The notes beneath the pieces were generated by a model. The model was not told the origin of the DNA. It was given only the letters and a program-made list of their open reading frames with translations, and searched no databases. From Bacillota bacterium (GTDB lineage Bacteria > Bacillota > Clostridia > Acetivibrionales > DSM-2933), in NCBI GenBank assembly GCA_030705945.1, contig JAUZPS010000002.1, forward strand, positions 1 through 35,139: a stretch of DNA of 35,139 bases, written 5' to 3'. Both the position numbers and the translations under genes were made by a program. The first letter of the stretch is position 1, and each line of letters begins with the position of its first letter. Positions 3,347 to 14,696 of the stretch are shown one piece after another.

Positions 3347-5836
3347 TTATCTTAATAACTGGAGAACACCTTGAGGTTGTTGGTTGGCTTGAGCCATCAT
3401 TGATTGAGCAGCCTGTGAAAGAATGTTGTTCTTTGTGAACTCCATCATTTCTTTTGCCATATCAACATCACGGATACGTGATTCAGCAGCTGTCAGGTTT
3501 TCAGATGATGTTCCAAGGTTATTGATAGTGTGTTCCAATCTGTTCTGGTAAGCGCCAAGTTGTGATCTTTGAGCTGAAACAGACTGTATGGCATTATCCA
3601 GAACCTTGATTGCAGCTGTAGATGATTCATGGGTAGATACATCCAATGCGAATTCATTTGCATCGTTGTCAGTTCCGTTGGTAACATTCTTTACAGCTGT
3701 AAATTTAGCTCCTTCAACACCGCCTGCTGTTGCGCCAGCTTGAGTGCCTGAAATCTCCAAGGCTTGAGAACGCATATCTTTAATATCCATCTGGAAGCTC
3801 TGGCCCATATTTGCGCCGATCTGCAATTTAGCTGAGAATGTGCCGCCTGAAACACTTGCAGGAGTCAAACCAGCTTGCTCTGTCTTAAATGAGAAGGATG
3901 ATGTATCGCCAGGCGCAAATTTTGTTGGATCTGTATCAAATGCGCCTATATCAACAACAGCTTCACCAATACCATCGCTTGATGATAATTTAACGCCCTG
4001 TTGTCCTGATTTGACTGTAACAGCTGCACCAGCAGTAGCGCTTCCTGCTTCAGTTAAGGATGCTGTATAATGGTTTGAGTCAACTGTAAATTGCGCAAAG
4101 TCTGTGGTTGCAGCAAAATTGTTAGCTACATAACCTGCTCCAACAGTTACAGTTAAATCACCGAATGTCATTGCTGAACCCGCAGTTAGACCTGTTAATT
4201 GTTTAGCTCCGGCTTGATCATAACCAGTAACTGCCGCAAAGGTTCCATCTGACTGCATCATCTGCAATTCAGCTTCATCATTGGTACCTGTGCCGACCAA
4301 TCTATAAGTACCAGATTGTAATGTGCTTGATCCATTATTAAAAGATACTGTTACATCACCTGCTGCAACGTTACCACCAACTCCAGTAGCTGTTCCATCC
4401 ATTGTAGCTGATGCTGCAACGTTGGTGATTATAACTTTCTGTTCACCATCAGAAAGACCTTTTGCAGATGTTACGCCAGCGCCTGGTAATTTTGTATTAC
4501 CATATACTTCATCAACTTTAACATTAGCGTTGTTGCCCATAACTATTGAGTTACCAGCGCCACCGCCTGTTGACGCAGTGATTAACAATTTTGAAGTATC
4601 GGTTTTAGATAATAACACATTTGCCAAAGCGCTGTTATTAGCGCCGTAATTGGTTGCGGTTGTTGCTGAAGAAACCGCGTTACCGGATGTGCCTGCCATT
4701 GAAGTAACAATAGCATCGACTATTTTTTCTGATGTTCTTGCTCCGTTTAAGTCAATTGCAAAATCAGCTGATCCGGAATACTTTCCGTTTGCGCTGTCAA
4801 AGAAATCAATTTTCTTACCGTCTACGACTATTCCAGATCCAATAAGATCACTAGCTTTTGAATTTGAGAAATCTATTGTATTCTGAGCGTTAGAATTTGC
4901 CGCAGCTGTGTTTGCAGGCACACCAATATTAATTGTGCCGCCAACAGTACCGCTCGCAGCGCTTGCAACTCCTCCATCGGCAACGCCTGTAAGGACTCCT
5001 TTTGCTGATAATGATGGAGCGGTAGCTTGTATTGTTACTGCGGCTGCGCCATTATCTGTTGCTGTATAGTTACCCTTTAAATCATCATGGTTTGCTATAT
5101 AGCTGCTTACCTGACTGGATATATCCTTAGCAACATTAGCAGCGCTTTCAGCGCCTGTTGTTTTAAGTGTGATTACATCACCTGAAACATTACTTGCTGC
5201 AGCAGTAGAATCGTACTGAACTTTTATAGTATGACTTCCAAGAGTTAAACTAAAATTCTTACCATCATCATTAGAAGCAGTTGCGTTTACAGCTGCGCCT
5301 ACAGTAAATACTGTTTTTGCTGGTGTTATTGCGCCCGTTGCGCCTGATCCACCCAACAGTGTTGCGGGAACAGTCAATCCGTTGCCTGATACCCCTTTTG
5401 TAGCCGTAGCAGCATTTCCGCCGCCGTTTAATAACTTCTGAGTGTTGAACTCTGTAGTATTACCGATTCTGTTTATTTCAGAAGTAAGCTGATTGATTTC
5501 CTTCTGTATTTCACCACGGTCTGTATCAGTGTTTGTACCGTTGGCAGATTGTGTCGCAAGTTCTTTCATTCTCTGAAGGATGCTGTGAGTTTCATTCAAA
5601 GCGCCTTCAGCCGTCTGAATCATTGAAATACCATCCTGAGCATTTCTTCCTGCCTGGTCGAGACCACGGATCTGACCTCTCATCTTTTCACTGATAGCCA
5701 AGCCTGCCGCATCATCGCCTGCGCGGTTGATACGCATACCTGATGACAATTTTTCCAAAGATTTTTGTGAATTTACGCCATTAGATTCCAATTGGCGATA
5801 GGTATTTAACGCTGCAATATTGTGATTGATTCTCAT
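3347..5836 (-). CDS. hag: Flagellin (large, ~829 aa, with expanded central variable region)
   Basis: [21 protein letters not shown]-terminus and ...[26 protein letters not shown]-terminus. The 862-aa track ORF starts too early; the ATG at 5836 has an AAGGAGGAG SD. Confidence 0.95.
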
Positions 5837-5842
5837 AAAAAA

Positions 5843-5876
5843 CTCCTCCTTGATTTGTTTTAGGGAATCCTTTCCC
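5843..5876 (-). promoter_or_regulatory. Predicted CsrA-binding leader of flagellin mRNA (AGGA-loop hairpin plus SD GGA)
   Basis: Minus strand GGGAA-AGGA-TTCCC hairpin (5863-5876), then AAGGAGGAG SD (5843-5851) before ATG 5836. Confidence 0.65.
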
Positions 5877-5897
5877 CAAGTTAATAGTTTTGTTATT

Positions 5898-6001
5898 ATA
5901 TTAAAAGTGATTAATCTTTTACATTTGCCTATCACAAAATAATGTTAAAGCATTCGTTATTTTGATTTGTCAAATGTAAGATTAATAGCGCCTTTAATTT
6001 A
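5898..6001 (+). repeat. Palindromic family 1, diverged copy E, in the flagellin leader
   Basis: attaaaagtgattaatcttttacatttgcctatcacaaaataatgttaaagcattcgttattttgatttgtcaaatgtaagattaatagcgcctttaat; same architecture as copies A-D. Confidence 0.85.
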
Positions 6002-7917: not shown

Positions 7918-9582
7918 TTATCTTAAGAAATCCATCAAGGACGGTTGTATTACTCTTGCCCCGCCTTCAAGAGACGCTTTGTATACATTTTCTTCATTTT
8001 TCAGGTTCATTATTGTTTCAGCCATATCCACATCTTCATTCTCACTCATTAACTGAGTAAAATTGATATTGTCATTTTCAAGCCTGTTTAATGTAAGATC
8101 AATACGGTTGGTTCTTGCTCCAACATCGGAACGTATGCCCATAACCTTATCCCTGAGATTATCCAATTCAGTTATGGAATTATCAATTCCTTCTTTACCT
8201 GTATATGAAGAAACTGTTTTATCAAGATTAGTGTATATTCTTAATGATCTTAACGCATCGTTACTTGCAGGCCCCTCCATCAAAGTTAATTTTCTTCCGC
8301 CATTTGCGGAAAAAACCAACCTTCCGTCTTCATTTTTTACTGTTACATTTGCGTCCACTAAATTTTTATCTGATGTAATAGAAGCCTGAATGCTGTTTAC
8401 CAAATCATCCAGTGTTTTTCCAGGCGTACCGTCATAAGTGTAGCCCCCTGGATCAGGTATAGTAATAGTTGTATACGAGCTCATTCCATCAACTTTAATA
8501 TTGAACTGATTGTTGTTGGTAAGATTTAAAGGCTTGCTGGCGCTGGCTTCAACATTTTGTCCTGTTATATATGTAGTTGTGTCAGGCCTTGACAGCGAAT
8601 CTATAAAGCTGTTGAGCCCCACCATAAATTCTCCCATATCACCTTTTATGCCTGTGCCGAAAAGTTGAGATCCCAATACATTTACATTGAGATTATCGTT
8701 GATTCCTATCTGATAATTGATATCCTCACTCTTAGAAACAACAATATTTGTAACAGGATCAGTTTTTAACTTTATACTCTGCAGCAAATCCGCGGGAGTT
8801 CCTTGCTTTATATACATTTTCATCCTGTTGCCATTGCTGTCAACAGTATTTCTCAGTGAAAACTGCAGTCTTCCTCCATCATTTGTGACTCTTATGTCAG
8901 CAAGTTCAGGATTGGCGTTAATGCCAGTCTGTATATCCAAAGCTAATGTATTTAAATCATTAGCAGTACCGTCATAATTTTTTGCGGGCAATGTAACAGT
9001 TTTATAATTGGTTCCATCAAGACATATCTGAAAGGACAAATTAGCCGTTGTATTATCGACAGGCGCTTTTGTCAAATCATTGAGACCGCTCTTTATTACA
9101 GCTGTCTCATTTGAAGCAACTGATATTTTATAAGTGCCATCCTCATTCATCAAGGGAGTGTCGGTTGAAAAACCGGAAAATACATACCTTCCTGCATAAG
9201 TAGAATTGGATAAATGAATTATTTGCCCCTTTAATTGTTCAACCTCTTTTTTTACCTTTTCCCTGTCATCAGTCGTCATGGTTCCGTTTGCGGATTGCAC
9301 AGCCAATTCACGAGCTCTCTGTAGCACGTCAACAATCATACCCATAGAACTTTCAGTGATATCCATCCATGAGTTAGCGTCATTGGCATTTTTTTTGAAC
9401 TGATCAACCTCAGCTACATCTGTTCTGAGTTTCAAAGCCTTTGCGGCTACAATAGGATCATCTGACGGAACATTGATTTTTTTTCCAGTCGCTAACTGGG
9501 TTTGATACTTATCCATTCTAGTTAAATTGTTGCTAACAAATCCCATCATGTTATTTATCAACATATTATTTGTAATTCTCAT
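7918..9582 (-). CDS. flgL: Flagellar hook-associated protein 3 (FlgL)
   Basis: 554 aa; MRITNNMLINNMMGFVSNNLTRMDKYQTQLATGKKINVPSDDP and C-terminal heptad region. Confidence 0.92.
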   Translation of the reverse strand: MRITNNMLINNMMGFVSNNLTRMDKYQTQLATGKKINVPSDDPIVAAKALKLRTDVAEVDQFKKNANDANSWMDITESSMGMIVDVLQRARELAVQSANGTMTTDDREKVKKEVEQLKGQIIHLSNSTYAGRYVFSGFSTDTPLMNEDGTYKISVASNETAVIKSGLNDLTKAPVDNTTANLSFQICLDGTNYKTVTLPAKNYDGTANDLNTLALDIQTGINANPELADIRVTNDGGRLQFSLRNTVDSNGNRMKMYIKQGTPADLLQSIKLKTDPVTNIVVSKSEDINYQIGINDNLNVNVLGSQLFGTGIKGDMGEFMVGLNSFIDSLSRPDTTTYITGQNVEASASKPLNLTNNNQFNIKVDGMSSYTTITIPDPGGYTYDGTPGKTLDDLVNSIQASITSDKNLVDANVTVKNEDGRLVFSANGGRKLTLMEGPASNDALRSLRIYTNLDKTVSSYTGKEGIDNSITELDNLRDKVMGIRSDVGARTNRIDLTLNRLENDNINFTQLMSENEDVDMAETIMNLKNEENVYKASLEGGARVIQPSLMDFLR

Positions 9583-9591
9583 TCGCTATCC

Positions 9592-11259
9592 CTACCTTCC
9601 GGAAACACCAACTCTATTAACCAAAGTATCATAAATTTCTCCTAACGTAGCAATCAACTTAGCCGCCGCTGTATAAGCGTGTTGGTATTTAACCATGTTG
9701 GCCATCTCTTCATCCAGAGAAACCCCTGAAACTGAGGCCCTTCTGTTATCAAGCTGACTGATGATATTGTCCTGAGTATTTGAAATCTGATCAGATTGCT
9801 GAGCATCAATGCCTAAAGTGGATACAAGCGCTTTCATATAATCCTCAGGCGCTCCTTCAACAAAAAGGTGGCTGTTGTGTCTCATATCTATCATATTCGT
9901 AAGGTTTGACGCGTCCTCAGACTGTCCTGAAGTTGAAGATGCGGCAATATTATATTCACCGCTTTCTTCATGAAGTAAATCAGCGCTTACTGAAAAGTTT
10001 TTGGCAGTCAGATTATTATACTGTTTTCCGATATCATCGACAGTTGCGGCTGTTCCTATAAATTCAGATGAGTACATCTCAGACTGAGCATTTTGCTTCT
10101 GAGACCATCCATTCATTGTAAAAAATCTTATCCCCGTTGGACTGACTGTATCGCCAGGCTTCATCATACCATAACCGTCCGCATGTCCCTGGCATACCTT
10201 TGAATAAACTATCGCGCCGGTATTATCCGTGTACTGCGTTATTCCTTCATTCATGGCAAGGGCGAACTTTCTTACAAATTCATTGAGTTTTTTTGTATAA
10301 AATGGTACTCCCTTGTAAGCTGGAGAATTCCCGTTGCCTTCATTGACTCCTTCATTTCCGTCACGCATATCAAGGTATCCCTTAAGTTCCCCGCCTCTTA
10401 CATCTAATGTGTTGCCATCTTCCCACGAAACGTCATACAAATTATCTACGTCCTCATCCACATTGAGTTTTTTGTCTCTTTGCTGTACTTTTAATGAAGT
10501 CATGTTATAGTGATCCACAAATGACTTTCCATTTATGGTAATTACAAAATGTTTCTCGTCTTTGCCGTTTGGCGTCTTTCCCACTACAACTTCAGACGCC
10601 TGTATATTAATTAGCTTTGAAAGTTTGTCCACAAGGACATTTCTTTGGTCCCTTAGATCATTCGCCTTGTTATCATCTAGTTCAGCTTGGTAAATCTGCT
10701 TATTAAGCTGCTGTATTTGTTTACCATATGAATTTATTTCATCGACTTTAATTTTAACATCGTAATTAAGATCTGATTGAAGTTTTTCCATATGAACAGC
10801 AACAGTGTTGAAATATTTTGTAAGAGTTACTCCCTTACCTATTACCAACTTTCTCGCCGCTGTGCTGCTCGGATCTTTAGTAAGCTCCTGAACCGCTGAA
10901 AAATAATCGTTTACAACTGTATTGAAGCCACTGTCTGAAGGCTCGTTAAAGGTTTTCTGAATATCATTAAGCTGTGTGGATTTTACTTCCCACTCGCCTA
11001 AAGCAGTGCTTTCACTCCAATATTTAAAATCAAGATAATCATCATGAATCCTGTCTATCGAAACAGCGTCTGAGCCAGTTCCTATCATTCCTGTACCATC
11101 ATAAACAGACATAGCCGGCGAGGCTTGTTGTACAGACATTTGTCTGGAATATCCTGGTGTATTTACATTGTTGATATTGTGGTTAACTACATCCAGACCT
11201 CTTTGAGCAGTATACAACCCGCTCGTAGCTACATTAAGAGCAAAAAATGAAGATCTCAT
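9592..11259 (-). CDS. flgK: Flagellar hook-associated protein 1 (FlgK), paralogue 2
   Basis: 555 aa; LNVATSGLYTAQRGLDVVNHNINNVNTPGYSRQ; C-terminal SLDEEMANMVKYQHAYTAAAKLIAT. Confidence 0.92.
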   Translation of the reverse strand: MRSSFFALNVATSGLYTAQRGLDVVNHNINNVNTPGYSRQMSVQQASPAMSVYDGTGMIGTGSDAVSIDRIHDDYLDFKYWSESTALGEWEVKSTQLNDIQKTFNEPSDSGFNTVVNDYFSAVQELTKDPSSTAARKLVIGKGVTLTKYFNTVAVHMEKLQSDLNYDVKIKVDEINSYGKQIQQLNKQIYQAELDDNKANDLRDQRNVLVDKLSKLINIQASEVVVGKTPNGKDEKHFVITINGKSFVDHYNMTSLKVQQRDKKLNVDEDVDNLYDVSWEDGNTLDVRGGELKGYLDMRDGNEGVNEGNGNSPAYKGVPFYTKKLNEFVRKFALAMNEGITQYTDNTGAIVYSKVCQGHADGYGMMKPGDTVSPTGIRFFTMNGWSQKQNAQSEMYSSEFIGTAATVDDIGKQYNNLTAKNFSVSADLLHEESGEYNIAASSTSGQSEDASNLTNMIDMRHNSHLFVEGAPEDYMKALVSTLGIDAQQSDQISNTQDNIISQLDNRRASVSGVSLDEEMANMVKYQHAYTAAAKLIATLGEIYDTLVNRVGVSGR

Positions 11260-11287
11260 GCCTCTTTCCTCCTGTCAAAAAACGGTA

Positions 11288-13357
11288 TTACCTGCCTACA
11301 GTTCCCAATTTATTTACTATAGACTCAAACATCTCATCAAACACATTAAGAACCCTTGCAGCAGCATTATACGCATACTGGTATTTCATCATGTTGGTCA
11401 TTTCTTCATCCATGGAAACGTTTGTTATCGCTTGTCTAGCATTATCCGCTGAGCTGACAAGGGTGTTCTGCCCTTCGGCAGCTGTTTGAGCTTCATCCCC
11501 GCCATTGCCTATTCCGCCTATTATTGAACGGTAAAAGTCATCCATGTCCTGAATATTCGCCGTGTTTCCCATCATTGCCTTATTCCTGAGGTTTGATATA
11601 CCAACAGCAATCGTATTATCTCCAACCGCTCCGTTTACTGACGATACAATATTCTTAAGATCATCAAGTTTAGGGTTGACCATTATGTTTCCCATTTGCA
11701 TCGGATAATAAGGATTTATTGGAACAAAAAAATCGACTCCGCCGTCACCGTTTAAATTAAATCCGCTTCTATGAAGGCTGTTAACCTCTCTTGTCATAGC
11801 ATTTACCATAAGATTCATCTTGTTCTTCAAATCAGAAATTATATTATTGGATTGAATCATATCCCCATAAATACTGCTTCTTATGCTTTCAGAAACATTA
11901 TCAGCTATATCTGACGCAGACAAACTGTTATCTACAAAACTTCCTCCCGAGTTGTCTATGAAGCCCTTCAGCGCAGTTTTGTTACTTGCATCAGATATTA
12001 TTGTAGTTTTTACCCTGTCAGTGTTAAACTGATTTCCCAGAGCGCTCAAACCTGTAGTATCAATCGCGCTGTTTGAATATATAATTATCTGCTTTGAAGT
12101 ATTTCTCCAGTTAGTAGCCGCATCCGCAGTATCAGACGCGCTTTGGGCATCCTTTAACGCCACCTCGGCAACTCCTGCTGTTCCTGTTCCTGTGAAGCCA
12201 ATACCTGTTCCTAACGCTGTATTTCCAATATGAGCTTTAAAGGAATCCACATCCGGAACATATATTCCGCTTGCATTTTTAGTAGAGTTCTCAAAAATAG
12301 TCGGGGAAGTCATTCCTGTATCATCAAAAGTTACATATCCAAGTCTGACGCCAATACCTCTGTTGTTGTAGTCTTTTACAATTGAATCAATCTTGTCATA
12401 AAGCTCATCTCTTCTTTGCGCAGTATCATTTGTATTAAACGCGAATACAAGGTCAACTTTGTCATTAGGCGAACCATTTTCAAAACTGCCTGTGGTTCCT
12501 GCAACTTCACCTCTTGACTCCATGAGTCCTTTTAAAACTCCATTTTTTATTGGGACTATAGTACCGGTTTTTTCAAGGGCGACTGCGGAGAACATGCTGC
12601 CTGCTTTATTATCTACCGTTTTTAATCTTTCATTTACTCCGCGATTAACCAGAAAATAGCCTCCAATTGTTATATCTATCTGACCATCCTGCGTCTCATT
12701 GATGCCGCAGTCAACCAGCTTTGAAATCCGATCAAGCAATACGTTTCTCTGATCTCTCAAATCGTTTGCGGAATCGTCTGCAGTCTCAACCGAAAGTATT
12801 TTAACGTTAAGTTCCGCAACATTTTTTGTTATATCATTTATTTCATTCACCCGCACATTAATTTCCGAATTCAAATCAGACTGAAGTTTGTCAAGCTGGC
12901 TGCCTAAATGGTTAATATATTGCGCTATGGAGTCCCCTCTCTGACGCACAAGCGCTCTTGTTGTCAAGCTTTCAGGGTCTTTTGAAAGTTCCTGCCATGA
13001 ATCCCAGTATTGATTCATGACATTCTGGAGCCCTGCATTCATAGGCTCGCCCATTACTGCCTGGATATCGGTAAAGGTTTTTTGCCTTGTCTCCCAATAA
13101 CCAAGATTCTCACTTTCCATTCTGTACACGTTATCTAAAAATGTATGCCTTATTTGCCTTGTCCTTTGAACGTCAGCTCCCAAACCTATCTGGTAATTTA
13201 CCTCATTCTGATATTTGGAGTCAGATATTGATAATTGCTGTCTGACATAACCAGGTGTATTAACATTTGATATATTATGTCCAGTGACAAACAATCCCCG
13301 GTCGTTTAAAGACAGACCTGACCTGGCAATTTCTATACTTGAGAAACCAACTCCCAT
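11288..13357 (-). CDS. flgK: Flagellar hook-associated protein 1 (FlgK), paralogue 1, with vWA-like insertion
   Basis: 689 aa; IARSGLSLNDRGLFVTGHNISNVNTPGYVRQ; C-terminal SMDEEMTNMMKYQYAYNAAARVLNV; approx. aa 298-495 are not FlgK-like. Confidence 0.92.
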   Translation of the reverse strand: MGVGFSSIEIARSGLSLNDRGLFVTGHNISNVNTPGYVRQQLSISDSKYQNEVNYQIGLGADVQRTRQIRHTFLDNVYRMESENLGYWETRQKTFTDIQAVMGEPMNAGLQNVMNQYWDSWQELSKDPESLTTRALVRQRGDSIAQYINHLGSQLDKLQSDLNSEINVRVNEINDITKNVAELNVKILSVETADDSANDLRDQRNVLLDRISKLVDCGINETQDGQIDITIGGYFLVNRGVNERLKTVDNKAGSMFSAVALEKTGTIVPIKNGVLKGLMESRGEVAGTTGSFENGSPNDKVDLVFAFNTNDTAQRRDELYDKIDSIVKDYNNRGIGVRLGYVTFDDTGMTSPTIFENSTKNASGIYVPDVDSFKAHIGNTALGTGIGFTGTGTAGVAEVALKDAQSASDTADAATNWRNTSKQIIIYSNSAIDTTGLSALGNQFNTDRVKTTIISDASNKTALKGFIDNSGGSFVDNSLSASDIADNVSESIRSSIYGDMIQSNNIISDLKNKMNLMVNAMTREVNSLHRSGFNLNGDGGVDFFVPINPYYPMQMGNIMVNPKLDDLKNIVSSVNGAVGDNTIAVGISNLRNKAMMGNTANIQDMDDFYRSIIGGIGNGGDEAQTAAEGQNTLVSSADNARQAITNVSMDEEMTNMMKYQYAYNAAARVLNVFDEMFESIVNKLGTVGR

Positions 13358-13382: not shown

Positions 13383-13910
13383 CTATATTTTAAAGTCAAA
13401 CATGCTCGATGCCTTCGAACTTGATTTTTCCGCGTCAATTCCATAATTATTATCCTTGGTTCCTGAGTTAGCAAAAAGGTTTAAAGAAAAATTAATATAA
13501 TCAAGGGAATTTCTTATCAGCTTTGAATTTAGATCATTTAAGTTTGTTAGCTCCTTTACCAGCTTACTTAAACTTTCCTGCTGAGATCTAAGCTTCTCTC
13601 CCAAATCGCCTTGAACAATTTCGATAAGCGTTGTTAATGTTATTTCCTCAGATTTCAATTTTAAAGCCCTGGATATCTTAAAAATTATTGTCTCTCTTTG
13701 ATTTTCAATTTGGGTAACTCTTAATATTAATTGCTGCTCAGCCTGAACTATTTTTTCAAGCTCGCTGACCTTACCTTCAACAATAATATCGGTCTTTTCC
13801 TTGGATATTTTATAAATATCATTGTATGTCGCAATTTCATTATCTAATATATTTATTAATTCATTATACAAACAATCCAAAAGAACACCCCCATTTTTAT
13901 AATCGAACAT
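13383..13910 (-). CDS. flgN: FlgN-family flagellar chaperone
   Basis: 175-aa coiled-coil-like protein between flgM and flgK. Confidence 0.75.
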   Translation of the reverse strand: MFDYKNGGVLLDCLYNELINILDNEIATYNDIYKISKEKTDIIVEGKVSELEKIVQAEQQLILRVTQIENQRETIIFKISRALKLKSEEITLTTLIEIVQGDLGEKLRSQQESLSKLVKELTNLNDLNSKLIRNSLDYINFSLNLFANSGTKDNNYGIDAEKSSSKASSMFDFKI

Positions 13911-14108: not shown

Positions 14109-14399
14109 TTAGCTATTTGTTTTGTTTATTACCGAATCAATTAACTTGTCTGCGACCTCATTACCACCCACATTGTACTCGCCTGAGTTGTATTTCTCCT
14201 CGATTTGCTTAACCTTTTCTGTCCTGATTTCCGGGATATCCTTCAAGGCCTTTAATGCTGTCTGAAAGTCCTTTGCTTGATTAGATATTGAGAGAACATC
14301 TTTCTTTCCAGCAGTTGCTTCTGATTTGTCAACCTTGTTGATATTTTTGTTTTTGCTGTAGATCCCGGAGACCTTTGGCGCATCTCCATTGATTCTCAT
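14109..14399 (-). CDS. flgM: Anti-sigma-28 factor FlgM
   Basis: MRINGDAPKVSGIYSKNK...DVLSISNQAKDFQTALKALKDIPEIRTEKVKQIEEKYNSGEY. Confidence 0.92.
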   Translation of the reverse strand: MRINGDAPKVSGIYSKNKNINKVDKSEATAGKKDVLSISNQAKDFQTALKALKDIPEIRTEKVKQIEEKYNSGEYNVGGNEVADKLIDSVINKTNS

Positions 14400-14696
14400 A
14401 AATACCACCTACCTTCTTAAACTTTAGATATAATTTAATTATACATTTTTCTTTATATAAAACTTATATAAATTCACATATAATTTCGACTTTTACTTCT
14501 ATTGTATATTTATGTTAAACCGGTAATTTTTAAATACCAGCTTATATACTTGTAAATAGGAATTTTAAGAAATAAGTTAGTCCCCCATAATAAAACATTA
14601 TCATTTAAACTTTTAATCTCTATATTCAAAGCCCAACTATACAGCGTTTACGTTAATGTTTAATTTAAATTTAATCTTATATTCCTCTCACTAAAT

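Follow-up and report, generated by a model that had tools for sequence, protein, structure and literature searches.

FlgK is usually viewed as a conserved part of the hook-filament junction with a variable outer domain, D2. The window analysed here, a stretch of 35,139 nucleotides, carries a filament locus made up of flgM, flgN, flgK1, flgK2, flgL, the gene for a DUF6470 protein, fliW and the gene for a large flagellin, and a first-pass annotation had claimed that one of its two FlgK paralogues is interrupted by some 200 residues with a vWA-like pattern. This raises the question of whether such a domain is genuinely present in a junction protein and, if so, what it might do there. The features concerned are listed in Table 1.

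Table 1. Features of the filament locus and of the FlgK1 insert, in window coordinates
Feature	Position	Strand	Size or residues	Basis
flgK1, hook-filament junction protein FlgK with inserted domain	11288..13357	(-)	689 aa	TIGR02492, FlgK_D1, Flg_bbr_C
flgK2, second FlgK, without insert	9592..11259	(-)	555 aa	TIGR02492, E 2.7e-97
flgL	7918..9582	(-)	554 aa	TIGR02550, E 1.9e-76
flgN, export chaperone of FlgK and FlgL	13383..13910	(-)		PF05130, E 2.2e-25
flgM	14109-14408			filament locus
Large flagellin	3347-5935		862 aa	
Inserted segment, absent from insert-free FlgK of the window's order	11834..12493	(-)	aa 289-508	alignment
vWA-fold domain proper	11858..12460	(-)	approx. aa 300-500	AlphaFold, Foldseek; VWA HMM in relatives
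Linker preceding the vWA domain, GSFENGSP region	12467..12487	(-)	aa 291-297	
NTNDT, at the position of the DxSxS metal-site motif	12422..12436	(-)	aa 308-312	
N429, at the position of the later metal-site Asp	12071..12073	(-)	aa 429	

FlgK1 is a FlgK protein that carries an additional domain

The product of flgK1 matches TIGR02492 with an E-value of 1.9e-92 (310.9 bits, above the cut-off of 170.75), and it also matches FlgK_D1 (1.7e-50) and Flg_bbr_C (1.1e-10). When a model of the full-length protein (pLDDT 75.9) was compared using Foldseek, FlgK ranked first and vWA domains next; the best matches were the Salmonella and Campylobacter FlgK proteins, with E-values to 6.4e-14 and the same D0/D1 architecture as solved FlgK. 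The D0/D1 core, D1b and the C-terminal helices are thus shared with FlgK (HAP1; PDB 9go6, 9gsx, 2d4y, 5xbj and 4ut1), as is the position of the gene in the operon, after flgN and before flgL. Alignment with insert-free FlgK proteins of about 490 aa from the same order revealed, however, an extra piece of approximately 220 residues (about aa 289-508). The first-pass annotation had placed it at 11873-12466 (aa 298-495); the peptide motifs that it quoted were all found in the sequence, and the neighbouring FlgK2 lacks the insert, as it had stated. Two residues of the linker that precedes the new domain, N294 and G295, are invariant.

Searches using the window's own insert as a single sequence, which are too weak for this purpose, returned no Pfam family and no PDB sequence match. 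Homologous inserts matched Pfam VWA in 18 of 33 cases, the best at 9.7e-12 and several above the curated cut-off, and a profile of the insert matched the integrin alpha-M I domain in the PDB at 1e-5. An AlphaFold model of the window's insert, built with 41 sequences (pLDDT 88.3, pTM 0.85), showed the strand-helix alternation of a vWA domain, and Foldseek searches of the PDB with this model gave as best matches the vWA domains of Rpn10, integrin beta chains, TFIIH subunits and BatB (E-values from 2.9e-6, probability 1.00; TM-scores by query of around 0.39-0.57 in the best 50 matches). The insert therefore shares its fold and its order of strands and helices with the vWA domains of PF00092 (integrin I domains, Rpn10, TFIIH p34/p44, BatB), and more than half of the inserts match that HMM, although here the domain sits within a flagellar axial protein. 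As family HMM, PDB profile and predicted structure agree, we are confident that the insert has a vWA fold, as the first-pass annotation had suspected.

The domain is inserted next to D1b, upstream of D2

When set against solved FlgK, all of which align without an insert, the FlgK family profile ends at GxLxGLLxxRG (Salmonella residue 288) and picks up again at RNTLGQLALAFADAFN (Salmonella residue 295), so that some 220 residues stand in place of about six. The insertion point lies in the loop after D1b, between it and the next long D1 helix, and upstream of D2. In Campylobacter FlgK, D1b spans Val214-Gly289 and has been modelled as contacting the hook protein, the next helical segment begins at Gln291, and D2 covers Ser340-Asn499 (PMC5691160). 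At the Salmonella junction, where each ring has 11 FlgK subunits, the D1 helices are buried and D2 is exposed (PMC12221982). Taken together with the insertion site, these structures indicate that the vWA domain probably lies on the outer surface of the junction ring, near the hook side.

FlgK outer domains do differ in size and fold among species (PMC5691160), and the insert might on that ground be regarded as merely an enlarged D2. This is highly improbable, and we rejected it: the insert precedes the helix before D2, it has the alpha/beta fold of a vWA domain whereas D2 has been described as mostly beta, and FlgK1 retains a separate, small D2 region. The structural comparison proposed in the first-pass annotation thus returned a vWA fold and not an ordinary FlgK D2.

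The metal site is degraded in all 41 inserts

In the window, neither of the metal-site positions listed in Table 1 conforms to the canonical residues, in keeping with the degenerate MIDAS that had been described from the sequence. vWA domains of this kind use the metal site for adhesion. The first metal-site Asp is retained in 34 of the 41 inserts; however, a Dx[ST]x[ST] motif together with the later MIDAS Asp was found in none of the 41, and this lack of a complete MIDAS separates them from the PF00092 domains. The MIDAS Thr position was not conserved in the HMMER alignment to integrin alpha-M, in which the alignment of the Thr is itself uncertain. From the degraded motifs, a canonical metal site would not be expected.

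This result bears on the suggestion of the first-pass annotation that the domain is of an adhesion type. An outward-facing module could bind plant polysaccharide, a surface or a host protein through a non-canonical vWA surface; vWA domains are common among adhesins, and the closest non-flagellar matches to the insert profile are surface proteins (LPXTG, Fn3, TSP3/Big_2). However, the MIDAS is degraded in 41 of 41 inserts, nothing was found that indicates a ligand, and by analogy with Salmonella only 11 copies would be expected per flagellum, near the cell (PMC12221982). The adhesion label was not supported, and we consider binding of an outside ligand rather unlikely, though it is the strongest of the competing explanations.

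The insert is an old and inherited feature

The first-pass annotation had proposed looking for the same insertion in relatives. Of 48 first FlgK copies obtained from the window's order, 36 contain it. Among the named carriers are Pseudobacteroides cellulosolvens (with 74% identity to the window protein), Ruminiclostridium papyrosolvens, R. cellobioparum, R. hungatei, Acetivibrio alkalicellulosi, Herbivorax, Anaerobacterium and Thermoclostridium caenicola, along with a few other clostridia. Acetivibrio carries the insert only in part, as A. mesophilus and A. straminisolvens are among the insert-free relatives. Many of the carriers degrade cellulose, which would suit a module binding plant polysaccharide, but A. 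mesophilus and A. straminisolvens are cellulose degraders too and do so without the domain.

In a class survey that drew on 292 genomes, the insert was found in 14 of 14 genomes of one family (f23) with FlgK among the matches listed, and in two genomes of another (f40; FlgK of 760 and 779 aa). Most clostridial FlgK in this survey, unlike FlgK1, lack the insert; the other FlgK proteins among the matches listed were mostly of about 450-560 aa and matched the core only. Six larger clostridial FlgK proteins of 577-659 aa (L167-L171, L173) gave no Pfam VWA match.

An unrooted tree of the FlgK core alone required five changes in the presence of the insert, at least four of which are forced by supported branches; since its root was not inferred, gain and loss are inseparable. 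Distances between inserts correlated with those between cores (rho 0.34, with 0 of 500 permutations as high), which indicates that the domain travelled with its gene. We conclude with high confidence that the insert is an old, inherited feature of FlgK1 in much of the window's order.

Several variations on this architecture were seen. Two insert-free FlgK1 proteins (L112, L116) retain a GS[VI]ENGS linker motif, which in carriers precedes the vWA domain, and this would fit either a scar left when the domain was lost or an older linker into which the domain was placed. In three members of the Clostridiales and Oscillospiraceae (L093, L095, L117), FlgK1 is approximately 742-761 aa long and has some 40 additional residues ahead of the vWA linker; in two of these FlgK2 is around 700-715 aa. 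The FlgK1 of L083 (a 713-aa frame) has roughly 55 extra residues near the D0-D1 junction, where the profile match breaks between positions 59 and 90. An adjacent pair of differing flgK genes is itself widespread in Clostridia, being found in the window (9592-13357) and at most of the loci surveyed in the order and the class.

The insert profile was also used to survey 300 Bacillota genomes. One genome of another class (G410) encodes a 488-aa flagellin (L183:1036-2499, (+) strand) with matches to Flagellin_N (1.9e-39), VWA (8.8e-12) and Flagellin_C (7.9e-20), in which the vWA domain (aa 162-310, with a DNTGS motif) lies between the N- and C-terminal helical regions. A search of eight further genomes from its order gave no such flagellin.

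Selection on the insert and the search for a co-varying partner

Between the window and P. cellulosolvens, dN/dS of the insert was about 0.13; synonymous sites of the window's core were saturated in this comparison. Between two relatives the insert gave 0.11 and the core 0.04. These values show that the insert is under purifying selection. Because the insert also occurs in single-contig genomes and is conserved across many families, with dN/dS of approximately 0.11-0.13, an assembly error or chance was ruled out and the insert is taken to be real.

The insert has nevertheless diverged more rapidly than the core (median identity 29% vs 53%) and ranges in length from about 170 to 240 aa, with rudimentary forms of some 170 aa in L070-L072 and L083. 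Fast divergence and variable loops would suit a domain that faces the environment, as an adhesive module would. A further explanation is that the domain was once metal-dependent and is now a decaying, tolerated passenger, which would accord with the decay of the MIDAS, the presence changes forced by supported branches (at least four) and the rudimentary forms; it sits poorly with the purifying selection on the insert and with a predicted fold that is well packed even in the window's divergent member, and we regard it as improbable.

No co-enlargement of FlgE with the insert was observed, as FlgE frames were mostly of 442-526 aa whether or not the insert was present. FlgL size likewise showed no general association with the insert. 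Raw FlgK2 lengths did differ in relation to the insert (medians close to 544 and 520 aa; p 0.001, Mann-Whitney test) but gave no signal in independent pairs. Thus no partner co-varies with the domain among FlgE, FlgL and FlgK2.

Enlarged FlgL proteins of about 548-566 aa occur only in the window's own clade (window, G001, G002, G003, G033, G052); elsewhere in the order FlgL is mostly of 303-330 aa, with some of 416-449 aa. This is also the clade in which the vWA insert has Asn in place of the first metal-site Asp. In two of its members, G001 and G002, flagellin-like frames of 1062-1064 aa lie near flgL.

Discussion

A vWA-fold domain entered FlgK1 at an early stage in the evolution of these clostridia, in the short loop that joins D1b to the D1 helix following it, and has since been inherited along with flgK1. 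As the D0/D1 core has been kept, FlgK1 most likely still assembles as the hook-filament ring. Judging from the Salmonella and Campylobacter structures, each subunit would then show one vWA domain on the outside, near the hook-facing edge of D1b. With its MIDAS degraded, the domain is most likely a metal-independent protein-contact module, like the vWA domains of Rpn10 or TFIIH, and it may make contact with the vWA domains next to it or with nearby subunits of the ring or hook, giving a collar around the outside of the junction. We put the probability that the domain serves as such a collar or contact, and does not bind an outside ligand, at roughly 0.45. Fast divergence and variable length would fit a free outer domain equally well, and the lack of a co-varying partner also counts against contact. 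Since several relatives do without the domain, it is not required for a working flagellum in general. More speculatively, and with a good deal less conviction, a vWA collar could surround a double-layered FlgK1-FlgK2 junction and alter its mechanics or seal it, with vWA having been recruited independently into flagellin elsewhere in the phylum.

Parts of this picture were already known. Two consecutive, non-identical flgK genes have been noted in the filament loci of Roseburia and Eubacterium, an arrangement like that of the window, and the accessible part of that report does not mention a vWA domain (PMC3720852). Flagellinolysin is a flagellin with an inserted metallopeptidase; like FlgK1 it has a foreign domain at an outward site of an axial flagellar protein, but the host is flagellin, present in thousands of copies, and the domain is a different one and enzymatic (PMC5595980). 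In the open-licence literature, no description was found of vWA joined with FlgK, hook-associated proteins or flagellin.

Much of a clostridial order, then, has an integrin-like domain in FlgK, away from D2, near the modelled hook contact, and has another FlgK as well. According to a model of the Salmonella junction, FlgK layers stacked on each other would clash (PMC12221982), and organisms with two flgK genes therefore make the build of a two-FlgK junction directly testable. The FlgK1 loop is also a naturally occurring site that can accommodate a domain of some 220 residues, for which the insert-free forms provide natural controls.
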